In this document: in pieces, positions 47,182 through 64,000 of the stretch
Layout: every line of letters begins with the position of its first letter
Position numbering within the stretch: the first letter of the stretch is position 1
From: Halalkalicoccus jeotgali B3
GTDB taxonomy: Archaea; Halobacteriota; Halobacteria; Halobacteriales; Halalkalicoccaceae
Length of the DNA stretch: 64,000 nt
Assembly (NCBI RefSeq): GCF_000196895.1
Contig: NC_014297.1
Location: 1,722,295 to 1,786,294 of the forward strand
Reading direction: 5' to 3'
Made by a program: the position numbers and the translations under genes
The notes under the pieces: generated by a model
The model's database searches: none
The model's input: the letters and a program-made list of their open reading frames with translations, nothing else
Told to the model about the DNA's origin: nothing

Positions 47182-47346
47182 CTATTGGGTAAGCGAGACG
47201 GTATAGTCCGTCGCGATCCATCCCTCCGAGTTCCCGTCCTCGGTGAAGACGATCCGATCCGGAGAGGTTCGGAGAGCGGAGACGAACGCGGCAGGCTCTT
47301 CGTGCTCGTCGATTGGTTCGATGTCGTGTCCGTCCGTGACTGCCAT
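47182..47346 (-). CDS. Very small conserved-type protein under an iron-box-like palindrome
   Basis: A 54-residue frame starting MAVTDGHDIEPIDEHEEPAA and ending SEGWIATDYTVSLTQ. Small acidic haloarchaeal proteins with a DxxNxxxWIxxD(Y/S)xVSL ending are common (I recall a DUF7331-type family), and this shares that ending. The TATA-like cctatatggg at about 47369-47378 would start transcription at or next to the ATG, giving a leaderless mRNA. The palindrome TTAGGTGGGCCTAA (47355-47368) lies between them. Iron-regulated expression is inferred; the function is unknown. Confidence 0.65.
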   Translation of the reverse strand: MAVTDGHDIEPIDEHEEPAAFVSALRTSPDRIVFTEDGNSEGWIATDYTVSLTQ

Positions 47347-47354
47347 GTCTCGAC

Positions 47355-47368
47355 TTAGGTGGGCCTAA
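47355..47368 (-). promoter_or_regulatory. Iron-box-like palindrome TTAGG-N4-CCTAA
   Basis: TTAGGTGGGCCTAA matches the TTAGG-N4-CCTAA inverted repeat that I associate with DtxR/SirR/Idr-type metal regulators in haloarchaea. It sits between the TATA-like box and the start codon of the 54-residue gene, the position expected for repression. A degenerate second copy (TTAGGCCGACCAAA on the minus strand) overlaps the stop of the Nif3-like gene at about 47382-47395. Two further perfect copies occur at 57907 and 60031. Confidence 0.65.
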
Positions 47369-47390
47369 ACCCATATAGGTTTTGGTCGGC

Positions 47391-48221
47391 CTAAGCCCGT
47401 CCGATCGAACAGCCCGAGATGGGAGTGCACTCGACGCCCCGCTCCTCGAGGGCGTCGATCAAGGCGTTCAGCCCGATCGCGTCCGAGGCGATGTGGCCCG
47501 TGACGACGAGGTTCTTCTCCTCGTAGGCCTCGCGCAGTTCGCGGGCGTCGCCCGCGCCGACGTGGATATAGAGTAGCGTATCGACCCCGTTCTCGAAGTA
47601 CGCGCGCGCGACGTCCGCGCCGCCGTTGGTTCCGGCGGCGTGGTGGACGGCGACCTCGCCCAGTTCGTGTTCCCCGTTTCCAACCCGTATCTCCACGTCG
47701 GTTTCGGCCGCGGCGAGTTCGGGGATCTCCTCGAGGGCGGCGACGAACTCCGCCACGGAACTCTCCGAACCTATCCCCTCTGCGACGTCGATAAAACGCC
47801 GACGGCCGATCTCGTCGGGGGCCAGATGAATGTTCATATAGGGCTGGTCGAGCAGTTCGGCCACGCTGGGGTCGTGCCGGTAGTTCGCGCTGTGGGCACC
47901 GAGTTCGACGCGCTCGCGGAGGTCGGCGACGGCATCTTCTGCCTGCGATTCGGGGACGCCGTGGTCGGTCATGAACTCGATCTGGCGGTTGAGCACGTCG
48001 GGAAAGTCGAGACGGGCGCGCTCGCCGGCCGGATGGTGGGCGAGCACGAGATCGTAGCCCTCGCGCTCGGCGAGTTGGACCTCGGGGCTTTCGAGGTCGA
48101 TTCCCACGAGCGCGCTCTCGATGTTCTCGCCGGGGACGTAGATCGTGCTGTCGGCGGGGACTTCGTCCCACTCGACCAGATCGAGACTGAGCTGCATGAT
48201 TTCGTCCGTGGTGAGTGCCAT
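47391..48221 (-). CDS. Nif3-like dinuclear metal centre protein
   Basis: A 276-residue protein of the NIF3/DUF34 family, starting MALTTDEIMQLSLDLVEWDE. The expected metal ligands are in VLAHHPAG, NIHLAPDE and the C-terminal AVHHAAGTNGGADVARAYFE with LLYIHVGAGDAREL and VTGHIASDAIGLNAL. DUF34 proteins are widespread; GTP cyclohydrolase-like, metal-insertion and repair roles have been proposed but none is settled. ATG 48221 is used; a longer frame to 48293 lacks similarity. Its stop overlaps the degenerate iron-box copy and the gene precedes the iron-box-controlled small gene on the same strand. Confidence 0.85.
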   Translation of the reverse strand: MALTTDEIMQLSLDLVEWDEVPADSTIYVPGENIESALVGIDLESPEVQLAEREGYDLVLAHHPAGERARLDFPDVLNRQIEFMTDHGVPESQAEDAVADLRERVELGAHSANYRHDPSVAELLDQPYMNIHLAPDEIGRRRFIDVAEGIGSESSVAEFVAALEEIPELAAAETDVEIRVGNGEHELGEVAVHHAAGTNGGADVARAYFENGVDTLLYIHVGAGDARELREAYEEKNLVVTGHIASDAIGLNALIDALEERGVECTPISGCSIGRA

Positions 48222-53290: not shown

Positions 53291-54736
53291 CTACCGGTCG
53301 GCCGCGGCCTCGACCCAGTCGCGCACCCGCTCGGTCGAGAGGTCCGTTCGCTCGGCGAGATCGGCCGGGTCGGCCGCTTCGAGGTCCGCGATGGACTCGA
53401 TGCCCGCCTCGCGAAGTCGGTCGGCGTACGACGGGCCGATTCCCGAGATCGATTCGAGGGTGTCTTCGTCGTTTTCGTCGTCCTCGTCGTCTCCCTCGGC
53501 CCCGTTTTCGCTTTCGGCCGCCGCCGTCTCGACGGTGTGCTCCTCGTCGGTGCCCGTCTCGTCGCCCGCGACGTCCTCCGCGAGTGCGGCGTCGGGCTCT
53601 TCGGGTTCGGTGACGGATTCGGCCTCGGTATCGGGCTCGTCGTCCTCGACCGTCGAGCGCTCGGCGTACCACTCACAGACGCTCGGCCAGAGTTCGGCAT
53701 GGGATTTCGAGGAGACCGAGAGGCCGATGTGGCCCGTCGGGAACTCCATGGTGGTCGTGTCGTCGCTCGCGACCAGGTCGTTGAACGGTTTGCTGGCCTC
53801 CGGTGGGATCAGGTGGTCGTACTCGCCCATGATCTGCAGGATCGGCATATCGACCTTCGAGAGATCGATGTGTTTCTCACCGAGATACAGCTCGTTTTCG
53901 GCGAGCTTGTTCTCCTGATAGATATCGGTGAGGAACTGCTCGTAGGTCTTGCCCGCGACGTCGATCCCGTCGCCGATCCACCGCTCCATGCGCGCGAAGT
54001 TCTCGACGAACTCCTCGTTTTCGATGTTGTCGTAGAGCTGGACGTACTTCGTGAGGAAGTTCTGGACGGGATCCATCACCGCAAAGCCGATGTCGAGGAA
54101 ATCGGCCGGAACGTTCCCGAAGGCGTCGGTGACGGCCTCGGGCGAGTAGTACTCCTCGTCGCCCCACTGTTCGAGGACACCACCCGTACCCGTGAAACAG
54201 AGCCCGGCGGCCATCAGCCCGAGGTTTCTGACTTTCTCCGGGTGGAGCGCGGCGTACATGACGCTCATCGTCCCGCCCATACAGTAGCCGAGGAGGTTGA
54301 TCGACTCCTGCCCGGAGCGTTCACACACCACGTCGACGCAGTTGTCGATGTAGCGATCGACGTAGTCCTCGAGGGTGAGGCTCGCGTCCATCGTCGAGGG
54401 CTCGTTCCAGTCGATCATATACACGTCAAAGCCGTTCTCGAGAAGGGTGCGGATGACGCTGCGATCCGGCTGGAGGTCGAGTATATACGGCTTGTTGATC
54501 AGCGCATAGGCGATAAGGATCGGGACGTCGTGTTGTTCGTCGGTCTGGGACTCGTAATGGAGGAGTTCGAGCTTGTTCTCCTCGTAGACGACCTCGCTCG
54601 GGGTCCCTCCGACCTCGACTTCGGCCATCCGTTCGAGCTGTTCGGGCGCGTCAGTGTTCTTCTCGATGGTTTCGGTCGCCTGCTCCCAGCTCTGACGGTA
54701 GAGATCGAATCCCAGCGTGAACGGGTTCGACGTCAT
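53291..54736 (-). CDS. phaC: Class III PHA synthase with a helix-hairpin-helix tail
   Basis: PhaC polymerises (R)-3-hydroxyacyl-CoA on the surface of growing granules and needs PhaE. The alpha/beta-hydrolase core (about 1-360) has the nucleophile elbow GYCMGG (Cys), [11 protein letters not shown] (Asp) and [17 protein letters not shown] (His). Beyond about residue 361 a roughly 70-residue acidic linker leads to a C-terminal helix-hairpin-helix domain ([20 protein letters not shown]), ending in [16 protein letters not shown]. Class III synthases are usually about 355-360 residues, so this is a long variant (481). The start overlaps the phaE stop (ATGA). Confidence 0.95.
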
Positions 54737-55290
54737 TCCTCGTCCTCGAGGTGCTCGATGACGGTGTCGAGTTTGTTCTCGACGGCGTGCTGGCGGCGTT
54801 CGAGTTCGATCAGGCGCTCACCGACCTCCTGGACGTCGCTTTTGGTCGCGAATCCGAGGTTGTGCAGGGTCTCGTCGGCCATCTCGTCGATCTCTTGGCG
54901 GTAGTCGAGGGCTTCCTCGACGGTCTGTCCGGTGGCCGCGGCGAAGGCCGTGGTGTCGGTGACGTCCTTGAACGCCTCGTTGGCGGCGTTGAGCCAGATG
55001 TCGCGGAACTCCTCGGTGGCGACCTCCTCGCCCGAGACCAGATCCATCGAGCGCTCGTAGGCCCGCTGGGAGGCGTCCATCCACGTCGCGTACGCGTTCG
55101 CGTAGCCCTCCGCGCCCTCCTCGAACTGCTCGGGGTCGGTCGTCTCCTCGACGGCCTCGACCCACGATTCGACGAACGAGGCCTGGGCCTCGACGTTCTG
55201 TTCGAGCGATCGGGCGAACTGATCGTTCATCGACTGCATAAACTCGTTCCACTGCTCGGCACCGGCCATCGGCGTGTTCATCTCTGTCAT
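54733..55290 (-). CDS. phaE: PHA synthase subunit PhaE
   Basis: PhaE is the second subunit of the haloarchaeal class III synthase and is required for PhaC activity. The 185-residue protein starts [20 protein letters not shown] and is helical, with [20 protein letters not shown] and the C-terminal coil [20 protein letters not shown]. The ATG at 55290 is preferred over an upstream in-frame start because the next codons match the known N-terminus. It overlaps phaC by four bases and follows phaP by 43 bases. Confidence 0.92.
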
Positions 55291-55333
55291 GGTGTGTACT
55301 GGGGGGTCTGGTATCAAAAAGGTACGTAACTTC

Positions 55334-55801
55334 CTACTGATCGACGGCGTCCTCGGCGGACTCGACGGCGATCTCGGTCTGCTCTTCGGCCTGCTGGCTG
55401 GCCTCGACGGCCATCTCCGTCGAGTCGTCGGCCATCGATTCGAGCTGCGAGACGAACTCGTCGTAGGCCTCGGCGTTCTCCTCGGCGAGCTGCTCGAAGG
55501 CGTCCCAGGACTGCTCGTGGAGTTCGAGGAAGACCGAGAACTGCTCGTCGATGGTGTCGTGGACCTCGCGAACGCCCATCGCGTCGCCGCCGGCGTCCTC
55601 GATGGCCTCGAAGTAGCTGTCGACGGCGCGCTGGGTCGCCTCGACGTTGCGGCGCTGGGTCGACTTCTGCGTATCGAAGGTGCCTCGGAACGCCTCGAAG
55701 GCGTCGTGCTGGAGCTTCAGTCCGCGCTTGAACGTCTCGTTGCTCTGGTTGATCATCGTGCGCTGTGCGTCGAACATCGGGGTCATGAGTGTATCAGTCA
55801 T
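55334..55801 (-). CDS. phaP: PHA granule-associated phasin PhaP
   Basis: A 155-residue amphipathic helical protein that coats PHA granules. It starts MTDTLMTPMFDAQRTMINQS and is built of long coiled segments rich in Gln and Glu (ENAEAYDEFVSQLESMADDS, TEMAVEASQQAEEQTEIAVE). The gene overlaps phaR by eight bases, as in the phaRPEC cluster of Haloferax mediterranei, where PhaP is the major granule protein. The family call rests on context plus composition, since phasins share little sequence. Confidence 0.88.
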   Translation of the reverse strand: MTDTLMTPMFDAQRTMINQSNETFKRGLKLQHDAFEAFRGTFDTQKSTQRRNVEATQRAVDSYFEAIEDAGGDAMGVREVHDTIDEQFSVFLELHEQSWDAFEQLAEENAEAYDEFVSQLESMADDSTEMAVEASQQAEEQTEIAVESAEDAVDQ

Positions 55802-56117
55802 TGTCTTCACCTGTGTCGAGGGGGATGACGATCGTCTGGACGATATCGCCCTCGTCGATTCCGAGCGCCTCCCGTTCCGCGTCGGGAATGGAGATCCGAC
55901 CGCCGCTCTGGACGCGCGTCTTGAACGCCGCAGCACCCATGCTCATCGCCGAGAGCTGCGACAGCCCGCCCATGCTTCGACCGCCGGCCGGGTTCATTCC
56001 CGAGACCCACTGAGCGAACAGCTGCTGCTGTCGTTTGGCGGCTTCTTCGCTGGCCTCCTGCATCTGATCCGCGAACATCGCGGGCGGCCACCACGCTCCG
56101 TCGGCGTCGTTCGTCAT
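55794..56117 (-). CDS. phaR: AbrB-type regulator of PHA synthesis
   Basis: A 107-residue protein with a C-terminal AbrB/SpoVT swapped-hairpin domain: FKTRVQSGGRISIPDAEREA followed by LGIDEGDIVQTIVIP. The N-terminal part (about 1-60, MFADQMQEASEEAAKRQQQL) is helical and may bind granules. In Haloferax mediterranei the matching PhaR binds its own promoter and the granule surface, repressing phaRP and sensing PHA content. It is the first gene of phaR-phaP-phaE-phaC. A TATA-like acacttatgtg lies about 25-35 bases upstream of the start. Confidence 0.9.
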   Translation of the reverse strand: MTNDADGAWWPPAMFADQMQEASEEAAKRQQQLFAQWVSGMNPAGGRSMGGLSQLSAMSMGAAAFKTRVQSGGRISIPDAEREALGIDEGDIVQTIVIPLDTGEDND

Positions 56118-56226: not shown

Positions 56227-57825
56227 TCACGATCCCATCTCTCCCTCCACGAGTAGGACGACCATCGACAGTCCCGAGACACCCACGAGCAACAGTGCGG
56301 GGACGGCGGCGTGCTGGAAGTAGGCGGCCTCCTGTGCGCGCCAGATCTGGGTGACGAGCGTCTCGAAGCCCGTCGGCCGCAGGATGAGCGTCACCGCCAG
56401 TTCCTTCATCGTCGTCAAGAACACGAGCGCCATTCCGGCGATCACGCCGGGGCGGATCATCGGCAGCGTCACCCGGCGAAACGTCGCCAGCGGGCGGGTG
56501 CCGAGCGTACGCGCGGCCTCGAGCAGCGTCGGATCGACCTGGAGGGTCGTCGTCCGGATCGAGCCGATCGCCTGGGGCATGAAACGCACGACGTAGGCGA
56601 ACACGAGCAGCGGGATGGTCTGGTAGATCGCGGGGGCGTAGCCGGCCCCGAAGTACACCAGTGCCAGTCCCAGAACGACCCCGGGGACGGCGAAGCCGAC
56701 GTAGGTCGCCCGCTCGAAGACCACAGAGAGCCGCGAGTCGTGGCGGGCGGCAAAGTACGCGACCGGCAGGGCCGCTAGGGCGGCGACCAACGCGGCTGCG
56801 GCCGACACCGAGACGGAATTGACGGCGTAGCTCCACTCGAAGGCCATCGAGGGCCGCGTCGGCGCGTCGGTCCTAACGAGCCACAACAGGAGGATCCCGA
56901 TCGGGACGAGCAGTCCCATCCCGGCGACCAGCGCGGGCAGGGCCATCGCCGGCCACCGCCACGCGCCAAGCGGGACGACGGCCTCGCCCGAGCGCTTGCT
57001 CAGATCGCTGTGGACCGTCTCCCCCGACCGGACCCACCACTCGAGGGCCAGTACGACCACGACCACCGCAAGCAGTTGCAAGGAGAGCAGCGCCGCGTAG
57101 TCCTGCCCGAAGGAGTTGTATTCGACGTAGATCTCGCGGGTGAACACCGACAGGCGCATGATCGAGGGCGTGCCGAAATCGGAGACCGCATACAACGCCG
57201 CCAGCAACCCGCCCGCAGCGATCGCCGGGCGGATGTGGGGCAGAGTCACTCGACGAAACGCCGCCCACCGGCCGTGGTTCAGGGTCCGGGCGGCGTCGAC
57301 CAGCGACGTATCGAACGACAGCAGGGCGGCGCGGGTCGTCAGGTAGACGTAGGGGTACGTATAGAGCGTGATCACGAGCGTCGCGCCCGGCAGCCCGTAG
57401 ATCTCCGGCAGGCGCTCGATCCCCAGCGGCGCGAGTACGGTATGAAACTCCCCCTGCGGGCCGAACGCCGAGACGAACGCGAACGCGCCGATGTAGCTCG
57501 GGATCACCAGCGGCAAGGCGACGACGACCGACCAGAAGCGCCGGAACGGCAGGTCCGTCCGGACCGTCAGGTAGGCCAGCGGGACACCCAGAAGCACCGA
57601 AAACACGGTTACGAGCCCCATCAACAGCAGGCTGTTGGTCAGGACCTCGACGGTCGTCGGTCGCGTGAGCATCCCCCACGCACGGGCGGGGTCGATGTTC
57701 GCCGCCCGGACGAACAGCCACGTCAGGGGAAACACCGTGCCCGCGGCGATCGCCCCGCACAGAAGCGCCAGCCCCACCGGTAGTCGATCGGTTCGCGCAC
57801 CCGTCGTCGTCGAAAGCGATCTCAT
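56227..57825 (-). CDS. fbpB: Iron(III) ABC transporter permease (FbpB type)
   Basis: A 532-residue double permease with about 12 helices and two EAA-type loops, VDAARTLNHGRWAAFRRVTL and LEAARTLGTRPLATFRRVTL, which contact the ATPase. This duplicated layout is typical of the ferric-iron FbpB/SfuB/AfuB permeases. No ATPase gene is adjacent in the window, so it may be encoded elsewhere; the substrate-binding lipoprotein lies at 62919-64000, separated by other genes. The perfect iron-box palindrome at 57907 lies 82 bases upstream and is shared with the divergent oxidoreductase pair. The start MRSLSTTTGARTDRLPVGLA is plausible. Confidence 0.9.
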   Translation of the reverse strand: MRSLSTTTGARTDRLPVGLALLCGAIAAGTVFPLTWLFVRAANIDPARAWGMLTRPTTVEVLTNSLLLMGLVTVFSVLLGVPLAYLTVRTDLPFRRFWSVVVALPLVIPSYIGAFAFVSAFGPQGEFHTVLAPLGIERLPEIYGLPGATLVITLYTYPYVYLTTRAALLSFDTSLVDAARTLNHGRWAAFRRVTLPHIRPAIAAGGLLAALYAVSDFGTPSIMRLSVFTREIYVEYNSFGQDYAALLSLQLLAVVVVVLALEWWVRSGETVHSDLSKRSGEAVVPLGAWRWPAMALPALVAGMGLLVPIGILLLWLVRTDAPTRPSMAFEWSYAVNSVSVSAAAALVAALAALPVAYFAARHDSRLSVVFERATYVGFAVPGVVLGLALVYFGAGYAPAIYQTIPLLVFAYVVRFMPQAIGSIRTTTLQVDPTLLEAARTLGTRPLATFRRVTLPMIRPGVIAGMALVFLTTMKELAVTLILRPTGFETLVTQIWRAQEAAYFQHAAVPALLLVGVSGLSMVVLLVEGEMGS

Positions 57826-57906
57826 GACTCTCGTGGTGGCGGGCGTCGGGCGCTGGTCCGGACGCCCGCCGATCGTCCGCCGGTTGCGTTTCGACGGGTA
57901 TAAGTT

Positions 57907-57920
57907 TTAGGTTTGCCTAA
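57907..57920. promoter_or_regulatory. Perfect iron-box palindrome between fbpB and the GMC operon
   Basis: TTAGGTTTGCCTAA lies just downstream of a TATA-like box (gggtataagt, about 57895-57904) for the rightward gene and close to the expected start site. A metal-loaded DtxR-like repressor bound here would block the rightward promoter directly and could also affect leftward transcription of fbpB. Iron control is inferred from the motif and from the iron permease next door. Confidence 0.75.
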
Positions 57921-57929
57921 TCCGCTCTC

Positions 57930-58439
57930 ATGGAGCTGACCAGGCGCGACGCGATCGCCGCGCTCGGGGCGCTCGGTGCCGCCGGAGCGCTGACGGTCGG
58001 CACCCGCGAGCGGGGGAACGACGACGAGCGCGTTCGCGAGACGTTCGTCGCCGCCAGCGAGGTGGTCTTCCCCACAGAGGTCGAAGGCATCGAGGGATTC
58101 GTCGAGACGTTTCTGGACGGACGTCTCGACCGGCCGGCCCACGCCACCGGTCTGCGCCGGACCGTCGCGGAACTCGACGACCGCGCGGCCGACTGGTACG
58201 GCGATCGGTTCGCGGCGCTGGCACCCGACGACCGGGATCGACTGCTGCGGGAAGTCGGCGCGGACACTGCAGAGGAGGACCCCGAGGGGACGACCGCGGA
58301 GCGGGTGCGCTACTACGTGGTCAACGAACTGCTGCTCGGGCTCTATAGCTCGCCGACGGGGGGAGAGCTGGTTGGGATCGAGAACCCGCAGGGTCACCCC
58401 GGCGGGATCGAGAGCTACCGGCGGGGGCCGGGGGAGTGA
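57930..58439 (+). CDS. Gluconate 2-dehydrogenase subunit 3-like protein (Tat)
   Basis: A 169-residue member of the GADH subunit 3 family, which accompanies GMC-type flavin dehydrogenases and contributes to their export and assembly. The Tat-like start is MELTRRDAIAALGALGAAGA. The body has VRETFVAASEVVFPTEVEGI and YVVNELLLGLYSSPTGGELV, family features. It overlaps the GMC oxidoreductase start by four bases. The TATA-like box and iron-box directly upstream suggest leaderless, iron-controlled transcription. No cytochrome c subunit is present nearby, unlike bacterial gluconate dehydrogenase. Confidence 0.88.
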   Translation: MELTRRDAIAALGALGAAGALTVGTRERGNDDERVRETFVAASEVVFPTEVEGIEGFVETFLDGRLDRPAHATGLRRTVAELDDRAADWYGDRFAALAPDDRDRLLREVGADTAEEDPEGTTAERVRYYVVNELLLGLYSSPTGGELVGIENPQGHPGGIESYRRGPGE

Positions 58440-60022
58440 CCGCGCGGACCCCGATCGGGAACGCGGCGGTCTGTGTGATCGGCGCGGGACCGGCCGGGGC
58501 GCTGATCGCGGATCGGCTCGCGGACGCGGGTCGGGAGGTGGTGGTGTTGGAGGCCGGCCCGCGCTTCGACCCGGCCGACCGGCTCGAACGCATGGAACGA
58601 TCGATCCGGCCCGCACACGGCCCGCCGGACGTCTGGGAGACGGGCGGGAATCGGGACGCCTACTCGGACTCCGGGGAGCGACCCTACCCGCTGAATCACG
58701 CCCGCGTGAAGGGCGTCGGCGGTACGACGCTGCACTGGCAGGGGATGGTGATGCGGCTGCACGAGGACGACTTTCGCTCGGAAAGCGCCCGCGGGGTCGG
58801 GGTCGACTGGCCGATCTCCTACGAGGAGCTCCGACCCCACTACGCCGGGGCGGAATCGGAACTGGGCGTCGCCGGGGCCGACGACAACCCCTTCGGACCG
58901 CCTCGCGAGGAGCCGTTTCCCATGCCGGCGTTTCCCCCGTCCTACAGCGACTCGCTGTTCACGTCGGCCTGCGAGGATCTCGAGATCGCGACTCACTCGG
59001 TGCCAAACGCCCGCAACTCCGCGCCCTACGACGGCCGGGGCGCCTGCGCGGGTTACGGGACCTGTCAGCCGGTCTGTCCCTCGCGCGCGAAGTACGACGC
59101 TACGGTTCACGTCGAGCGTGCCGAAAAGAAGGGTGCGACGGTGATCGACCGCGCGCCCGTCCGCCGGCTCGAACACGACGCCGACCGGATCACGGCCGCA
59201 CGCTATACGATCCCCGGGGGCGAGACGCACAGACAGGAGGCAGACGCCTTCGTGGTGGCCTGTGGCGGCGTCGAGACGCCCCGGCTGCTGTTGCTCTCGG
59301 CTTCACAACAGTATCCCGACGGCCTCGCAAACACCAGCGGTCTCGTCGGCCGGTATTTCACCGAGCACCTCTTTGCGGGTATGGGCGGTACACTGGACGA
59401 GCAGACCCGACAGAACCACGTCGGGTTCCTGACGAGCGAGAGCCACCAGTTCTACGACGAGGCCGACGACGAACTCGCCCCGTTCAAACTCGAATTCCTC
59501 AACTACGCCGGCCCATCGCCGGTCGAGGAGGCCCTTGCGGGCGACGACTGGGGCGACCCGCTGCTCGAACGGCTGCGCGGGAGCTACGGCACCCACCTCG
59601 GCGTTGGCGCGCTGGTCGAACAGCTCCCCAGCGAGGACAGCTACGTCGGACTCGATCCCGATGTGACCGACGACCGCGGCGACCCGGTCCCCGAGATCCA
59701 CTGGTCGATCGACGAGCGTGCGCTCCGGACGCTCGAACGGGCCAACGACCTCCAGCGTGCGATCCTCGAGGAACTGGACGCGGAGATCACCTGGCGGGTC
59801 GGCCCCGAGAACACCGGACCGGCCTTTCACCACATGGGCACGACACGGATGGGGGCCGATCCCGCCGACAGCGTCGTCGACCCGGACCTGCGGACCCACG
59901 ACCTCTCGAACTGCTGGATCGTCTCCAGTAGCGTCTTCCCCACCGGCGGCGCGCTCAACCCCACACTCACCATCGCGGCGCTTGCGCTGCGGGCCGCCGA
60001 TCGGATCGACGTGGCGCTGTGA
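58436..60022 (+). CDS. GMC-family FAD oxidoreductase
   Basis: A 528-residue glucose-methanol-choline-type flavoprotein. The FAD Rossmann motif is VIGAGPAGALIADRLADAGR, followed by VVLEAG. GGTTLHWQGMVMRL and the C-terminal HHMGTTRMG with FPTGGALNPTLTIAALALRA are typical of the gluconate/sorbitol dehydrogenase branch. A cluster of Cys (RGACAGYGTCQPVCPSRAKY) at about 200-220 could form a disulfide or metal site, perhaps an Fe-S cluster. No Tat signal of its own is visible; it is probably exported with the subunit 3 partner. The substrate is a sugar or polyol acid, not identifiable here. Confidence 0.9.
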   Translation: MTARTPIGNAAVCVIGAGPAGALIADRLADAGREVVVLEAGPRFDPADRLERMERSIRPAHGPPDVWETGGNRDAYSDSGERPYPLNHARVKGVGGTTLHWQGMVMRLHEDDFRSESARGVGVDWPISYEELRPHYAGAESELGVAGADDNPFGPPREEPFPMPAFPPSYSDSLFTSACEDLEIATHSVPNARNSAPYDGRGACAGYGTCQPVCPSRAKYDATVHVERAEKKGATVIDRAPVRRLEHDADRITAARYTIPGGETHRQEADAFVVACGGVETPRLLLLSASQQYPDGLANTSGLVGRYFTEHLFAGMGGTLDEQTRQNHVGFLTSESHQFYDEADDELAPFKLEFLNYAGPSPVEEALAGDDWGDPLLERLRGSYGTHLGVGALVEQLPSEDSYVGLDPDVTDDRGDPVPEIHWSIDERALRTLERANDLQRAILEELDAEITWRVGPENTGPAFHHMGTTRMGADPADSVVDPDLRTHDLSNCWIVSSSVFPTGGALNPTLTIAALALRAADRIDVAL

Positions 60023-60030
60023 ACCGCACT

Positions 60031-60044
60031 TTAGGCGAACCTAA
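60031..60044 (+). promoter_or_regulatory. Perfect iron-box palindrome upstream of the GT2 gene
   Basis: TTAGGCGAACCTAA lies 34 bases before the ATG of the glycosyltransferase gene and just after the GMC stop. The following aaaagaataagt could serve as a TATA box. It is the third perfect or near-perfect copy in the window (others at 47355 and 57907). Confidence 0.7.
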
Positions 60045-60077
60045 AAGAATAAGTCCCCCCGGACGAAAGGGCGCTCA

Positions 60078-60827
60078 ATGAGTCAGGTTTCTCGGGGCGG
60101 GAACGTGCCGCTCGACCGACCGGGGGCGGAGGCGGCGTCGGCCGAGGAGGGATACACGTTCGAGGACGTCAGCGTCGTGATGGGCACCTACAACGAGGCC
60201 GCGGCGATCGGGTCGGTGCTCGCCGATATCGAGCGGGTCACCGACGGGAACGCCGAGGTCGTCTGTGTCGACGGCTCCTCGGATCGCACCCCCGAGATCG
60301 CCCGGGAACACGGCGCGCGGGTGATCGAACAGGAGCCCCAAGGCTACGGCGTCGCGGTCCGGGCGGCGATCCTGGCGCCCGACCGACCCGTGGTGGTGAC
60401 GACCGACTGTGACGACACTTACCCGATGGAGCGACTGCCCGCGTTCCTCGAATCGATCAACGCGGGCTACGACGTCGTCAGCGGCGACCGACTCTACCAC
60501 GGGGCCGAGGCGATGCCGACGGTCAATCGGCTGGGCAACGCGACCTTCGCGCTGCTGGCGAGCGCCCTGATGGGCCGGCGTGTCCACGACACTACAACAG
60601 GGATGCGCGCGTACCGACGCGAGGTCGTCGAGTCCATCGAGTGGACCGAGAATACCGGTCTCTCAGCGGAGCTATTGATCCGGTCACTGATGCGTGGCTA
60701 CGCAGTCCGGGAGCTGCCCATCGAATACCGCGAGCGCGCGGGCGAGACGAAACTCGACCCGCTCTCGGGCGGCGCGGCCATCGCGAAATCGATCCTGCGG
60801 GTCGGCCTCGGGGAACACCTGCGTTAG
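60078..60827 (+). CDS. Family 2 glycosyltransferase
   Basis: A 249-residue GT-A-fold transferase of the dolichyl-phosphate-sugar synthase type. It starts MSQVSRGGNVPLDRPGAEAA; the catalytic domain begins at about 30 (VSVVMGTYNEAAAIGSVLAD). The donor-site aspartates are in VCVDGSSDRTPEI and VVTTDCDDTYPMERL, and the product-release region is YRERAGETKLDPLSGG. It has no membrane segment, so it probably makes a lipid-linked sugar for transfer by another enzyme. The convergent membrane glycosyltransferase, overlapping its 3' end by four bases, is a plausible user. The iron-box at 60031 suggests iron-dependent expression. Confidence 0.9.
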   Translation: MSQVSRGGNVPLDRPGAEAASAEEGYTFEDVSVVMGTYNEAAAIGSVLADIERVTDGNAEVVCVDGSSDRTPEIAREHGARVIEQEPQGYGVAVRAAILAPDRPVVVTTDCDDTYPMERLPAFLESINAGYDVVSGDRLYHGAEAMPTVNRLGNATFALLASALMGRRVHDTTTGMRAYRREVVESIEWTENTGLSAELLIRSLMRGYAVRELPIEYRERAGETKLDPLSGGAAIAKSILRVGLGEHLR

Positions 60828-62905
60828 GCTGGTTCGATCCGTGTCTCGAAGGCGACGCCCTCGCGGTGGGCGTCGGGGGTGTCGGGGAGGTACGTGCCCT
60901 CCGATCCACACCGAGTCACGAGCGGACAGACGGTGCGCTCGGGTGGCGCGATCGCCTCGACGCGCTCGCCGTCTCCCCGGACGGCCGTCTCCTGTCGGTA
61001 CGTCAGCGTCGAGCCGTCGGGCTGAACCAGCGTGATCGACAGCACTACCTCCTCGGTAGCCCCGAGGCCCACGGGCGAGTCGACTGCCCCCAATCGGGCC
61101 GCACCCGGTTCGAGCGTCCAGTCCACGACGACCTGCTCGCCGGGGTCTTCGATGCCGTACTCGGCGACCTCGCCGTCGGCCTCCAGGCGGACCGTCGCGC
61201 GGTCGACGTTCGCGGGCACGCCGACCGTCGTCTCGCCGGCGAGCGCCTCACCCGAGCGCACCGAGAGCGCCTCGAGTTTTGGGGTGACGCGGTCGTCGGG
61301 GTCGGGCGTCCACTCGCCGCGGTAGGCGTATCGGTAGTTGTCACGGTCGGGGTACGCATCGAGCACGGCGAAGTCCTCGGCGGGCTCGCGATCGAGCGCG
61401 TAGACGACCTCGCCGTCGAGGCCGGGATCGTTGCGGAGATACTGGAACGGGTGGTTCTGCCACTCGCCGTAGGGAGTCGGCAGGAAGACCAGCGCCCCGT
61501 CGAAATCGGTCGCCTCGATCGGTTCGTAGGCGGTCTCGTACTTCTCGGTGTGGGCGGCGTTTCGCTCGATCGGTTCGGCCACCGGTGGGGCGGCCGCGAT
61601 TCCGGCGAGCGCGAGACCCACGAGAAGCGCGAGCGCGAGCACCGCGCGGGCCACCGACGGGCCACTGAGAGCCCGGACCCGCGTCGCGAACCGTCGCCAG
61701 CCGGTGACGATCGCCAGCGCGGCGAAGATCGACAGTGGGGCCAGCAGGTCGAAGTGATAGAGCGGGCCGAACTCCGCGATCAGGCCGTCGGTTGGGTCTT
61801 CGAACGTCGCGAGCACGTTGTAGTTGCCCCAGAAAAGGAGGTTCCCGACCGGGATCGAGACGAACAGCCCAACGAGGAGGAGACCGGGGGTTCGGTCCGT
61901 GGACACGGACGCCGAGCCGTACCACCGGCGGATCGAGAGCGCCAGCCCACAGACCGCACACGCGGTTCCGAGCGCACCGGCGGTGAACCACCGAGTCAGA
62001 AGGTACCACAGCACGTAGCCGTTGGCCTCGGCGGCGAGTGCGGGCGTGTACTCGACGGCGTGTTCGAGGAGCCGTCGCCGACCGAACCCAGGTCCGTCCA
62101 TCGGCGCGAACGCCGCGTACGGAAAGACGAGCGCCGATCCCGTGAGAGAGGCGTTGTACGCAAGCGTCAGTCCGACGAAGGCCAGCCCACCGCCGGCGGT
62201 GAGCGCGTTTCGCACCAGCGGGTCGGGAACCGGGCCGCCCTTGTGCTTGCGAACCGTCGTCACGACCGACCACAGCGCGTGGGCGATGAAGGGCGCGGCG
62301 AACAACACGGCGGTGTAGGGCCGGGCGAAAAAGGCCAGCCCGATCGCCACTCCCGCGAGGGCCGCACTCGTCCGGCTTCCCGTCCGGACGCCGGAGAGAT
62401 AACAGACGGCAAAGAGCAGGTTTAACAGCGTCGTCGGGGCGTATGGCAGGAACACCGACGTGGTCACGAGCGCCATCGGCGCGGCCGCGAAGATCGCCGC
62501 GGCCGCGACGCCGACCGACCGGTCGAACGCCATCGCGCCCAGCGCATAGACGCACAACGCGTTGCCAGCCGCGACGGCCGCGAGCGTCACGCGGGGCTCG
62601 CCGAACAGCGCCATCGAGGCGGCGTACATCGCTGCGGGCACCGGCGAGTACTTCGGATACAGGGTCCCGCCGTCCTCGACGAAGAACCACGGCCGGAACG
62701 CCCCCGATAGCTCGCCGGGGAACAGCCGCAGTTGCTCCTCCAACAGCATCGCGGCCTGCTGGAGGTAGACGCCCTCGTCGTGGTTGATCGAGTGATAGGG
62801 GAAGACTCGGGTCGCGATCGCGAACACCGCGACGCCGGCGACGAGTGCGACCAGAAGGGCCGCGATCCGCCGGCGCTCGGGTGGATCCGTCGGGAGGGAT
62901 CTCAC
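60824..62905 (-). CDS. Large membrane glycosyltransferase (PMT/ArnT, GT-C type)
   Basis: A 693-residue protein. The first about 420 residues hold 11-13 helices; the loop after the first contains HSINHDEGVYLQQAAMLLEE, whose Asp-Glu pair is the catalytic signature of GT-C enzymes such as PMT and ArnT. The C-terminal about 250 residues form a beta-rich outer domain ending in a basic/acidic tail. It would transfer a sugar from a lipid donor to protein or lipid on the outer face. It begins 13 bases after the iron-binding protein gene, so the two are probably cotranscribed. The acceptor is unknown. Confidence 0.82.
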   Translation of the reverse strand: MRSLPTDPPERRRIAALLVALVAGVAVFAIATRVFPYHSINHDEGVYLQQAAMLLEEQLRLFPGELSGAFRPWFFVEDGGTLYPKYSPVPAAMYAASMALFGEPRVTLAAVAAGNALCVYALGAMAFDRSVGVAAAAIFAAAPMALVTTSVFLPYAPTTLLNLLFAVCYLSGVRTGSRTSAALAGVAIGLAFFARPYTAVLFAAPFIAHALWSVVTTVRKHKGGPVPDPLVRNALTAGGGLAFVGLTLAYNASLTGSALVFPYAAFAPMDGPGFGRRRLLEHAVEYTPALAAEANGYVLWYLLTRWFTAGALGTACAVCGLALSIRRWYGSASVSTDRTPGLLLVGLFVSIPVGNLLFWGNYNVLATFEDPTDGLIAEFGPLYHFDLLAPLSIFAALAIVTGWRRFATRVRALSGPSVARAVLALALLVGLALAGIAAAPPVAEPIERNAAHTEKYETAYEPIEATDFDGALVFLPTPYGEWQNHPFQYLRNDPGLDGEVVYALDREPAEDFAVLDAYPDRDNYRYAYRGEWTPDPDDRVTPKLEALSVRSGEALAGETTVGVPANVDRATVRLEADGEVAEYGIEDPGEQVVVDWTLEPGAARLGAVDSPVGLGATEEVVLSITLVQPDGSTLTYRQETAVRGDGERVEAIAPPERTVCPLVTRCGSEGTYLPDTPDAHREGVAFETRIEPA

Positions 62906-62918
62906 GGCGGCGGGACGA

Positions 62919-64000
62919 TCAGACGTCGGCTCCGGCCTGGCGCATCAGGTCGATCGTCGGTTCGAGGTTCGACAGCTGTGTCAGGTCCAGTTCCGAGGGC
63001 GGGTTGAGTTCGTCGATCGTCGGTAGGTCGCCGATCGGCTGGACCTCTGGGTGCAGCGGGTACTCGAAGGTCGTCCGGGCGAAGTAGTCCTGGGCCTCGG
63101 CCGACAGCAGGTGCCGAACGAAGTTCGCCGCCAGATCCGCGTCGGCGGCGGCGTCCAACACGGCTCCGCCCGCGACGTTGAAGATCGCGCCGGCGTCGCC
63201 CTCGGTGAAGGCCGTATCGATCGGGGCCCCGGGTGAGCCGTCGAGGACGCGCTGGATGTAGTAGTGGTTGGTGAACCCGGCATCGATCTCGCCGTCGGCG
63301 ATCGCCTGACAGACCGCGAACTCGTCGGGGTAGCTGGCGATGCCGTTCTCGACGACGCTCTCGACCCACTGGCGGGCCCGTTCCTCGCCCTGTAACAGTC
63401 GCATCGCGGTGACGAACGCCTGGCAGGAGCCATACGAGGGCGCCCAGCCCAGGTCCGCGCCGAACTCCTCGTAGGCATAGATGTCACTCGGCATCTCCTC
63501 GGCCGACAGTGCCTCCGTGTTGTACGGGACCGTCCGGGCGCGCCCCGAGATTCCGATCCAGTCCTCCGTGGCGAACTCCTCGGGAACGACCCCGACCAGG
63601 TCCTCGGGAAGCGACTGGGTGCGTCCCTCGTCAGCCAACACGCCGAGCGAACCGGCGTTGACCGAGTAGAAGACGTCCGCCGGGGTGCCCGACCCCTCGC
63701 TGAGGATCTGGTTGACCAGGTCTGCGGAGTTACCGTAGCGCACCTCCATCGAGAAGTCCCCGTAGAGGTCGTCGATGTAGTTCACGAGGTCGCCGATGAG
63801 GAACTCGTTGCGACCCGAGTACAGCGTCAACTCGCCCTCGAGTGCTGGCATCTCCTCCATGGGGGTGCCGCCGGGCGCGCCCCGACCCTCGCGTCCCGAG
63901 CCGATCTGGCCGATGTCGGAGTCCGGGGATCCACCGTCCTCACCCCCGTCGCCGCCACCGCCGAACAGACCCGTACAGCCCGCCGCGCCGGCCGCGCCGA
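62919..64000 (-). CDS. fbpA: Iron(III) ABC transporter substrate-binding lipoprotein, 5' end cut off
   Basis: A transferrin-type periplasmic-binding protein of the FbpA/AfuA family. The visible frame continues to the right edge; the last visible residues include a lipobox (AGAAGCTG) followed by a Gly/Asp/Ser-rich linker (FGGGGDGGEDGGSPD), so the signal peptide lies mostly outside. The domain starts at about 63845 (LTLYSGRNEFLIGDLVNYID) and includes ADVFYSVNAGSLGVLADEGR, GISGRARTVPYNTEAL and FTEGDAGAIFNVAGGAVL, all typical of iron-binding members. It is the likely partner of fbpB (56227) although unlinked, and is cotranscribed with the GT-C gene. Confidence 0.88.
   Translation of the reverse strand, partial: GAAGAAGCTGLFGGGGDGGEDGGSPDSDIGQIGSGREGRGAPGGTPMEEMPALEGELTLYSGRNEFLIGDLVNYIDDLYGDFSMEVRYGNSADLVNQILSEGSGTPADVFYSVNAGSLGVLADEGRTQSLPEDLVGVVPEEFATEDWIGISGRARTVPYNTEALSAEEMPSDIYAYEEFGADLGWAPSYGSCQAFVTAMRLLQGEERARQWVESVVENGIASYPDEFAVCQAIADGEIDAGFTNHYYIQRVLDGSPGAPIDTAFTEGDAGAIFNVAGGAVLDAAADADLAANFVRHLLSAEAQDYFARTTFEYPLHPEVQPIGDLPTIDELNPPSELDLTQLSNLEPTIDLMRQAGADV

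Follow-up and report, generated by a model that had tools for sequence, protein, structure and literature searches.

What brings a ferric iron importer, an exported sugar dehydrogenase and genes for glycan assembly under a single DNA signal? The question is raised by a locus of Halalkalicoccus jeotgali B3 lying in a 64,000-nucleotide stretch of contig NC_014297.1 (positions 1,722,295 to 1,786,294; hereafter the window), where copies of the palindrome TTAGG-N4-CCTAA, here called iron boxes, stand between the genes concerned. An earlier note, made from the letters of the window alone, had interpreted positions 56227-60827 as an iron-starvation unit joining a permease (fbpB), a two-gene dehydrogenase (GADH3-GMC) and a glycosyltransferase of family GT2. 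Here we describe evidence that the boxed gene set is very probably a functional module, and we propose how it might deliver ferric iron to the cell. Its regulation and linkage are well supported, and its chemistry is a matter of conjecture.

The unit reaches beyond 56227-60827, as a GT-C membrane glycosyltransferase, fbpA, a GT75-type protein and fbpC also belong to it. Reading from the window into locus L019, the order is fbpB (minus strand), a box, GADH3 and GMC (plus), a box, the dolichyl-phosphate hexose transferase gene (DPHT, plus), GT-C (minus), fbpA (minus), a box, GT75 (minus), two boxes and fbpC (plus), the last three boxes falling just past the window end. The features of the window are:

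56227..57825, minus strand: fbpB, ferric ATP-binding cassette (ABC) permease with two fused BPD_transp_1 halves (Pfam), which stays with fbpA in relatives
57907..57920: iron box TTAGGTTTGCCTAA, perfect TTAGG-N4-CCTAA, between fbpB and GADH3, flanked by TATAAG and the GADH3 ATG
57930..58439, plus strand: GADH3, small subunit with a twin-arginine translocation (Tat) signal; PF13618 (Gluconate_2-dh3), 1.9e-10
58436..60022, plus strand: GMC, catalytic subunit of a flavin adenine dinucleotide (FAD) dehydrogenase, with a GTG start and a 4-base overlap with GADH3
60031..60044: iron box TTAGGCGAACCTAA, perfect, directly 5' of the TATA-like AATAAG of the DPHT gene
60078..60827, plus strand: DPHT (GT2), dolichyl-phosphate hexose transferase; NF041391, 1.6e-122
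60824..62905, minus strand: GT-C membrane glycosyltransferase; PMT_2 and DUF7846 (Pfam)
62919..63998, minus strand: fbpA, ferric-binding lipoprotein whose start lies just beyond the window end (L019:7214-8356)
47355-47368: third iron box, perfect (= C1:1769649), with a one-mismatch copy at 47381-47394, 5' of an open reading frame of 54 amino acids

The palindromes reported at 57907 and 60031 are present exactly as placed, the gene calls hold, and the perfect box at 47355 had been overlooked. Sites with at most one mismatch number four in the window against 0.12 expected, a count that no shuffle attained, and the 3.7-Mb genome holds 15 perfect boxes compared with one occurrence of the reversed control pattern. 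Tolerating one mismatch adds only six genome sites, three of which adjoin perfect boxes. The signal was also counted in 1.63 Mb of sequence from 80 named haloarchaeal loci, for whose selection GMC, not the box, was the criterion. These contain 189 copies of TTAGG-N4-CCTAA, at most two of any of 29 other palindromes of the same letters, and none of the box halves at spacings of 0-3 and 5-10. Shuffles, letter permutations and spacing controls together rule out chance palindromes. A perfect box precedes 72 of 79 GADH3-GMC units and a one-mismatch box five of the remaining seven, while DPHT has a box within 250 bp in 37 of 42 GMC loci. Upstream of GADH3 the succession is TATAAG, box and ATG with nearly no leader, a layout repeated in relatives, and a repressor seated there would be expected to mask the transcription start.

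Which regulon these boxes define can be read from the gene content of the stretches surrounding them in the same genome. Boxes at C2:106849/106884 stand ahead of a siderophore cluster (diaminobutyrate decarboxylase, IucA/IucC and N-monooxygenase), and those at C1:480505-482721 and 785929-791239 accompany periplasmic iron/siderophore-binding proteins, a FecCD permease with its ATPase, a thioredoxin-reductase-like flavoprotein and a protoglobin; one, at C1:1769649, lies before the 54-amino-acid reading frame next to a DpsA-like ferritin gene, and the remaining boxes mark the fbp locus. Because the boxed genes are of siderophore, Fhu, fbp and ferritin type, they form an iron regulon, to which the unit described here almost certainly belongs. 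This content, together with the way in which box and gene set have been retained among haloarchaea, strongly supports the reading as an iron-starvation unit. The arrangement resembles the haloarchaeal DtxR/FerR regulon, in which, according to the account in PMC11349517, the signal stands before fhu and other iron uptake genes; the same account credits the ferR signal ahead of the Haloferax (Hfx.) volcanii fhu genes to Leyn and Rodionov 2015, and the box is probably the same motif. Three DtxR-family genes of the genome score above the profile cut-off, and no box with one mismatch or fewer was found beside the three best, so no sign of autoregulation appears there; action of a predicted DtxR-type repressor at the boxes is supported indirectly.

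Is the linkage peculiar to this genome? Three arrangements recur among haloarchaea. In Halalkalicoccus, Natrinema, Halorubrum, Natronomonas and others (arrangement A), fbpB, GADH3-GMC, DPHT, GT-C, fbpA and GT75 lie together; in Halomarina, Halolamina and others (arrangement B), GT75-fbpA-fbpB-fbpC-GT-C form a single row, near which GADH3-GMC and DPHT are found; and in arrangement C, exemplified by Haloferax and Halobacterium, the boxed GADH3-GMC pair sits beside hisC and other housekeeping genes, with the GT75-fbpA-fbpB-fbpC-GT-C row elsewhere. Among the dispersed genomes sampled, that row is found in 20 of 20, DPHT adjoins it in 17, and a perfect box precedes fbpA in 20/20 and GT75 in 18/20. 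Synteny across families thus rules out the accident of a single genus, and the prospect that the neighbours might be unlinked in all relatives did not materialize. In four genomes (G059, G091, G097 and G108), a boxed GMC is found on its own, and the twin-arginine GADH3 follows GT-C in the fbp operon. That GADH3 is in the iron operon when parted from GMC argues for a shared job, and is hard to explain otherwise.

Presence and absence agree with position. Across 146 genomes of the order, GMC occurs in 97 and GT75 in 100, with both in 95, GMC only in 2, GT75 only in 5 and neither in 44 (Fisher p = 4e-29, uncorrected for kinship). Joint absence of the two inside genera whose remaining members carry both (g1, g8 and g27) points the same way. 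Genes for nonribosomal-peptide-synthetase-independent siderophore (NIS) synthesis are distributed independently of the module, occurring in 41 of the 146 genomes, namely 27 of 100 with the module and 14 of 46 without it; 73 of the 100 module genomes have no NIS genes.

Another explanation is iron-sparing metabolism, under which the genes would share a regulon and no common pathway and, with iron-rich respiration cut back, GMC would pass sugar electrons to copper proteins or quinones. Respiratory iron proteins do drop in iron-starved Hfx. volcanii (PMC11349517), and the isolation of GADH3-GMC in Haloferax and Halobacterium would suit such a role. However, the repeated physical linkage, seen in many families, to fbpABC and to genes of glycan assembly, the move of GADH3 into the fbp operon and the iron requirement of GMC itself make this account quite improbable.

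What, then, is the dehydrogenase? GMC matches the Burkholderia FAD-dependent glucose dehydrogenase (FAD-GDH; 5e-89) and Gluconobacter fructose dehydrogenase (9e-83) over its full length. Its sequence CAGYGTCQPVC (residues 204-214) had been called an unusual cysteine cluster, an assessment that proved wrong: C204, C210 and C214 align to Cys212/218/222 of Burkholderia FAD-GDH, which are the ligands of its [3Fe-4S] cluster (PMC6719666), and the motif therefore belongs to the family and is ruled out as a novel site. These cysteines and the catalytic H465/N508 are invariant in 61 of 61 sequences. Export of the flavoenzyme is supported by the GADH3 N-terminus, whose twin-arginine RRD is invariant (33/33), as for a hitch-hiker subunit, and by the correspondence of GADH3 to such a subunit; a fold search with GADH3 gave no confident PDB match. 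The pair thus shares with the membrane-bound FAD dehydrogenases, gluconate 2-dehydrogenase among them, the full-length match, [3Fe-4S] cysteines, catalytic His/Asn and Tat-borne small subunit; unlike them, it has no cytochrome c subunit within its module, is iron-boxed and is tied to fbp and glycan genes. No CXXCH haem-c motif was found in any protein of the module, to which this search was confined, in agreement with the earlier remark that no cytochrome subunit is nearby. Since the module encodes no multihaem cytochrome c, we file GADH3-GMC as a cytochrome-less relative and not as a full complex of the direct-electron-transfer type. The original interpretation is thus upheld in part: the iron unit, the export and the linkage survive, the oddity of the cysteines does not, and the roles suggested for the flavoenzyme, ferric reduction or the processing of a chelating sugar acid, stay conjectural.

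These properties invite the main competing explanation, that of a sugar-driven ferric reductase, in which GADH3-GMC would pass electrons from external sugar through its [3Fe-4S] cluster to Fe3+ chelates, freeing the iron for import. It would explain the missing cytochrome subunit, it fits the surface location of the cluster in the Burkholderia enzyme, and it accords with the co-regulation of GADH3-GMC and iron import. The importer itself tells against it. FbpA best resembles solved ferric-binding proteins in the PDB (8e-58), and the Fe3+-binding tyrosines Y210, Y267 and Y268, placed by alignment to solved FbpA, are kept in 37 of 38 sequences, so that Fe2+ is not the expected cargo. With the conserved glycan genes also left unexplained, we regard the reductase as unlikely. 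The fbpB permease and fbpC ATPase are both at the locus, which in its ferric-binding FbpA, fused permease and ATPase resembles the FbpABC/HitABC importers and differs from them in the glycosylation and sugar dehydrogenase genes placed among its own. An identity of FbpAB as an aminoethylphosphonate transporter was rejected, as matches to TIGR03261/TIGR03262 fall far under their cut-offs and FbpA fits the ferric-binding structures.

The glycan genes form the third part of the module. The GT2 glycosyltransferase stands as a gene call, and its identity can be refined to dolichyl-phosphate hexose transferase, with 406 bits against NF041391 (curated cut-off 375). The predicted fold of GT-C resembles OST/AglB, ArnT, ALG9 and EmbB (E 7e-8 to 5e-4, TM about 0.4-0.5), and the acidic motif D43/E44 of its first outer loop is invariant. 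DPHT with a GT-C of matching fold recalls the pairs of dolichyl-phosphate sugar synthase and GT-C enzyme of the ArnT, ALG9 and EmbABC type, from which the haloarchaeal set differs in being iron-controlled and coupled to a dehydrogenase. The GT75-like protein (PF03214, 2e-16) retains in 37/37 sequences the DDD motif, catalytic Arg, D195, R257, D260 and Mn-ligand His. It shares these residues with the GT75 family, comprising reversibly glycosylated polypeptides and the nucleoside-diphosphate-pyranose mutase MtdL, and departs from MtdL at D87 (His here), Q229 (Met) and H292 (Arg).

Two further families keep company with these genes. A UPF0104-type membrane protein (PF03706) flanks GT75 in 27 of 37 linked loci, mostly with a box of its own, and a gene for an NAD-dependent epimerase turns up repeatedly close to the module, in any of three places; examples are L053:16194-17288 and L119:18677-19603, respectively. 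In iron-starved Hfx. volcanii, a UPF0104 protein (HVO_1859) rises 11.6-fold and a GalE-type epimerase (HVO_0655) 12.7-fold (PMC11349517), and the likeness in family name is suggestive of their being counterparts of the module's neighbours.

Could the glycan simply decorate FbpA, another uptake protein or the S-layer as an adaptation to high salt, with GMC finishing the sugar by oxidation and no sugar-iron ligand involved? On the same strand, fbpA (arrangement A) or fbpC (B and C) is followed immediately by the GT-C gene, and the fold of GT-C resembles protein glycosyltransferases, both as decoration would have it. Yet a general stabilizing glycan would need neither an iron-controlled pathway nor a dehydrogenase of its own; we hold this explanation to be rather improbable.

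We instead favor a scheme in which the sugar branch serves the importer, because the Fe3+ tyrosines of FbpA are conserved and the glycan genes recur, two features that speak for it over simple ferric reduction. In iron-replete cells, an iron-loaded DtxR-family repressor would occupy TTAGG-N4-CCTAA over the core promoters and keep the module silent. When iron is low, the FbpABC ferric-iron importer would be made along with the glycan set of GT75-type sugar-nucleotide enzyme, DPHT and GT-C; DPHT would make dolichyl-phosphate hexose, and GT-C would put the hexose onto an external acceptor. GADH3-GMC would take up FAD and [3Fe-4S] on folding, leave the cell by means of the GADH3 Tat signal and oxidize the exported sugar, or free sugar, at the cell surface, and the oxidized product, in keto or acid form, would bind or mobilize Fe3+ and pass it to FbpA. 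Comparisons of sequence support the elements from which the scheme is built, namely the regulon, the set of genes and their linkage, the signal for export, the cofactor residues and the ferric type of FbpA; what we infer is which repressor, sugar and acceptor are involved and that the product acts as a chelator.

Some points weigh against this scheme. The GT75-like protein is without the two residues, at positions 87 and 229, that MtdL requires for mutase activity (PMC9937993), and such activity is not assured for it; and making a [3Fe-4S] enzyme under iron starvation is costly. We put the probability of the full scheme, from iron starvation through exported glycan and surface oxidation to delivery of Fe3+ to FbpABC, at roughly 45%. 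Its boldest form is doubtful: the glycan, repressed by iron, would leave the cell along the dolichyl-phosphate pathway and be oxidized outside by the Tat-exported FAD/[3Fe-4S] dehydrogenase to a ferric ligand that feeds FbpA, which would make the system a pan-haloarchaeal carbohydrate counterpart of siderophores, commoner than NIS synthesis and independent of it.

Every part of the module belongs to a known family. No description of the union of ferric importer, glycan genes and GADH3-GMC was found in the literature searched, a scope that left aside the haloarchaeal FerR/TroR regulon listings, where an earlier listing is possible. That the iron-boxed set is conserved, also where its genes lie dispersed, suggests a means of iron acquisition not described so far, and the presence of the set in about 100 of 146 genomes, against 41 with NIS siderophore genes, bears on how most haloarchaea obtain this metal. 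If the scheme is true, glycosylation and metal uptake would be connected in Archaea, by a route testable in tractable genera, since species of Haloferax and Halobacterium carry the module.

Several minor observations concern the surroundings of the boxes. To the left of the module, window positions 53291-56117 (minus strand) hold genes resembling a polyester (polyhydroxyalkanoate) synthase, granule genes and an AbrB-type regulator, and an AbrB-like gene adjoins the module in some relatives too (L053, L201 and L202). The two boxes between GT75 and fbpC are 43 bp apart (L019:9562-9618), at a place where, in the sister genome L053, a UPF0104 gene is set between two boxes with fbpC next in line; the H. 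jeotgali genome seems to have lost the UPF0104 gene, leaving the paired boxes as an apparent scar. The 54-amino-acid reading frame (47182-47346, minus strand) has its tandem boxes 11 bp 5' of the ATG and a DpsA-like ferritin gene adjoining, and is possibly a small iron-regulated protein. Paralogous Peripla_BP_2 iron/siderophore-binding proteins, several with a box of their own, lie at L017:6750-13072 and L016:6608-9948 with one FecCD permease and ATPase alongside. The protoglobin gene (PF11563; L017:13240-13880) stands immediately behind an iron box, which suggests that a haem gas sensor is under iron regulation.

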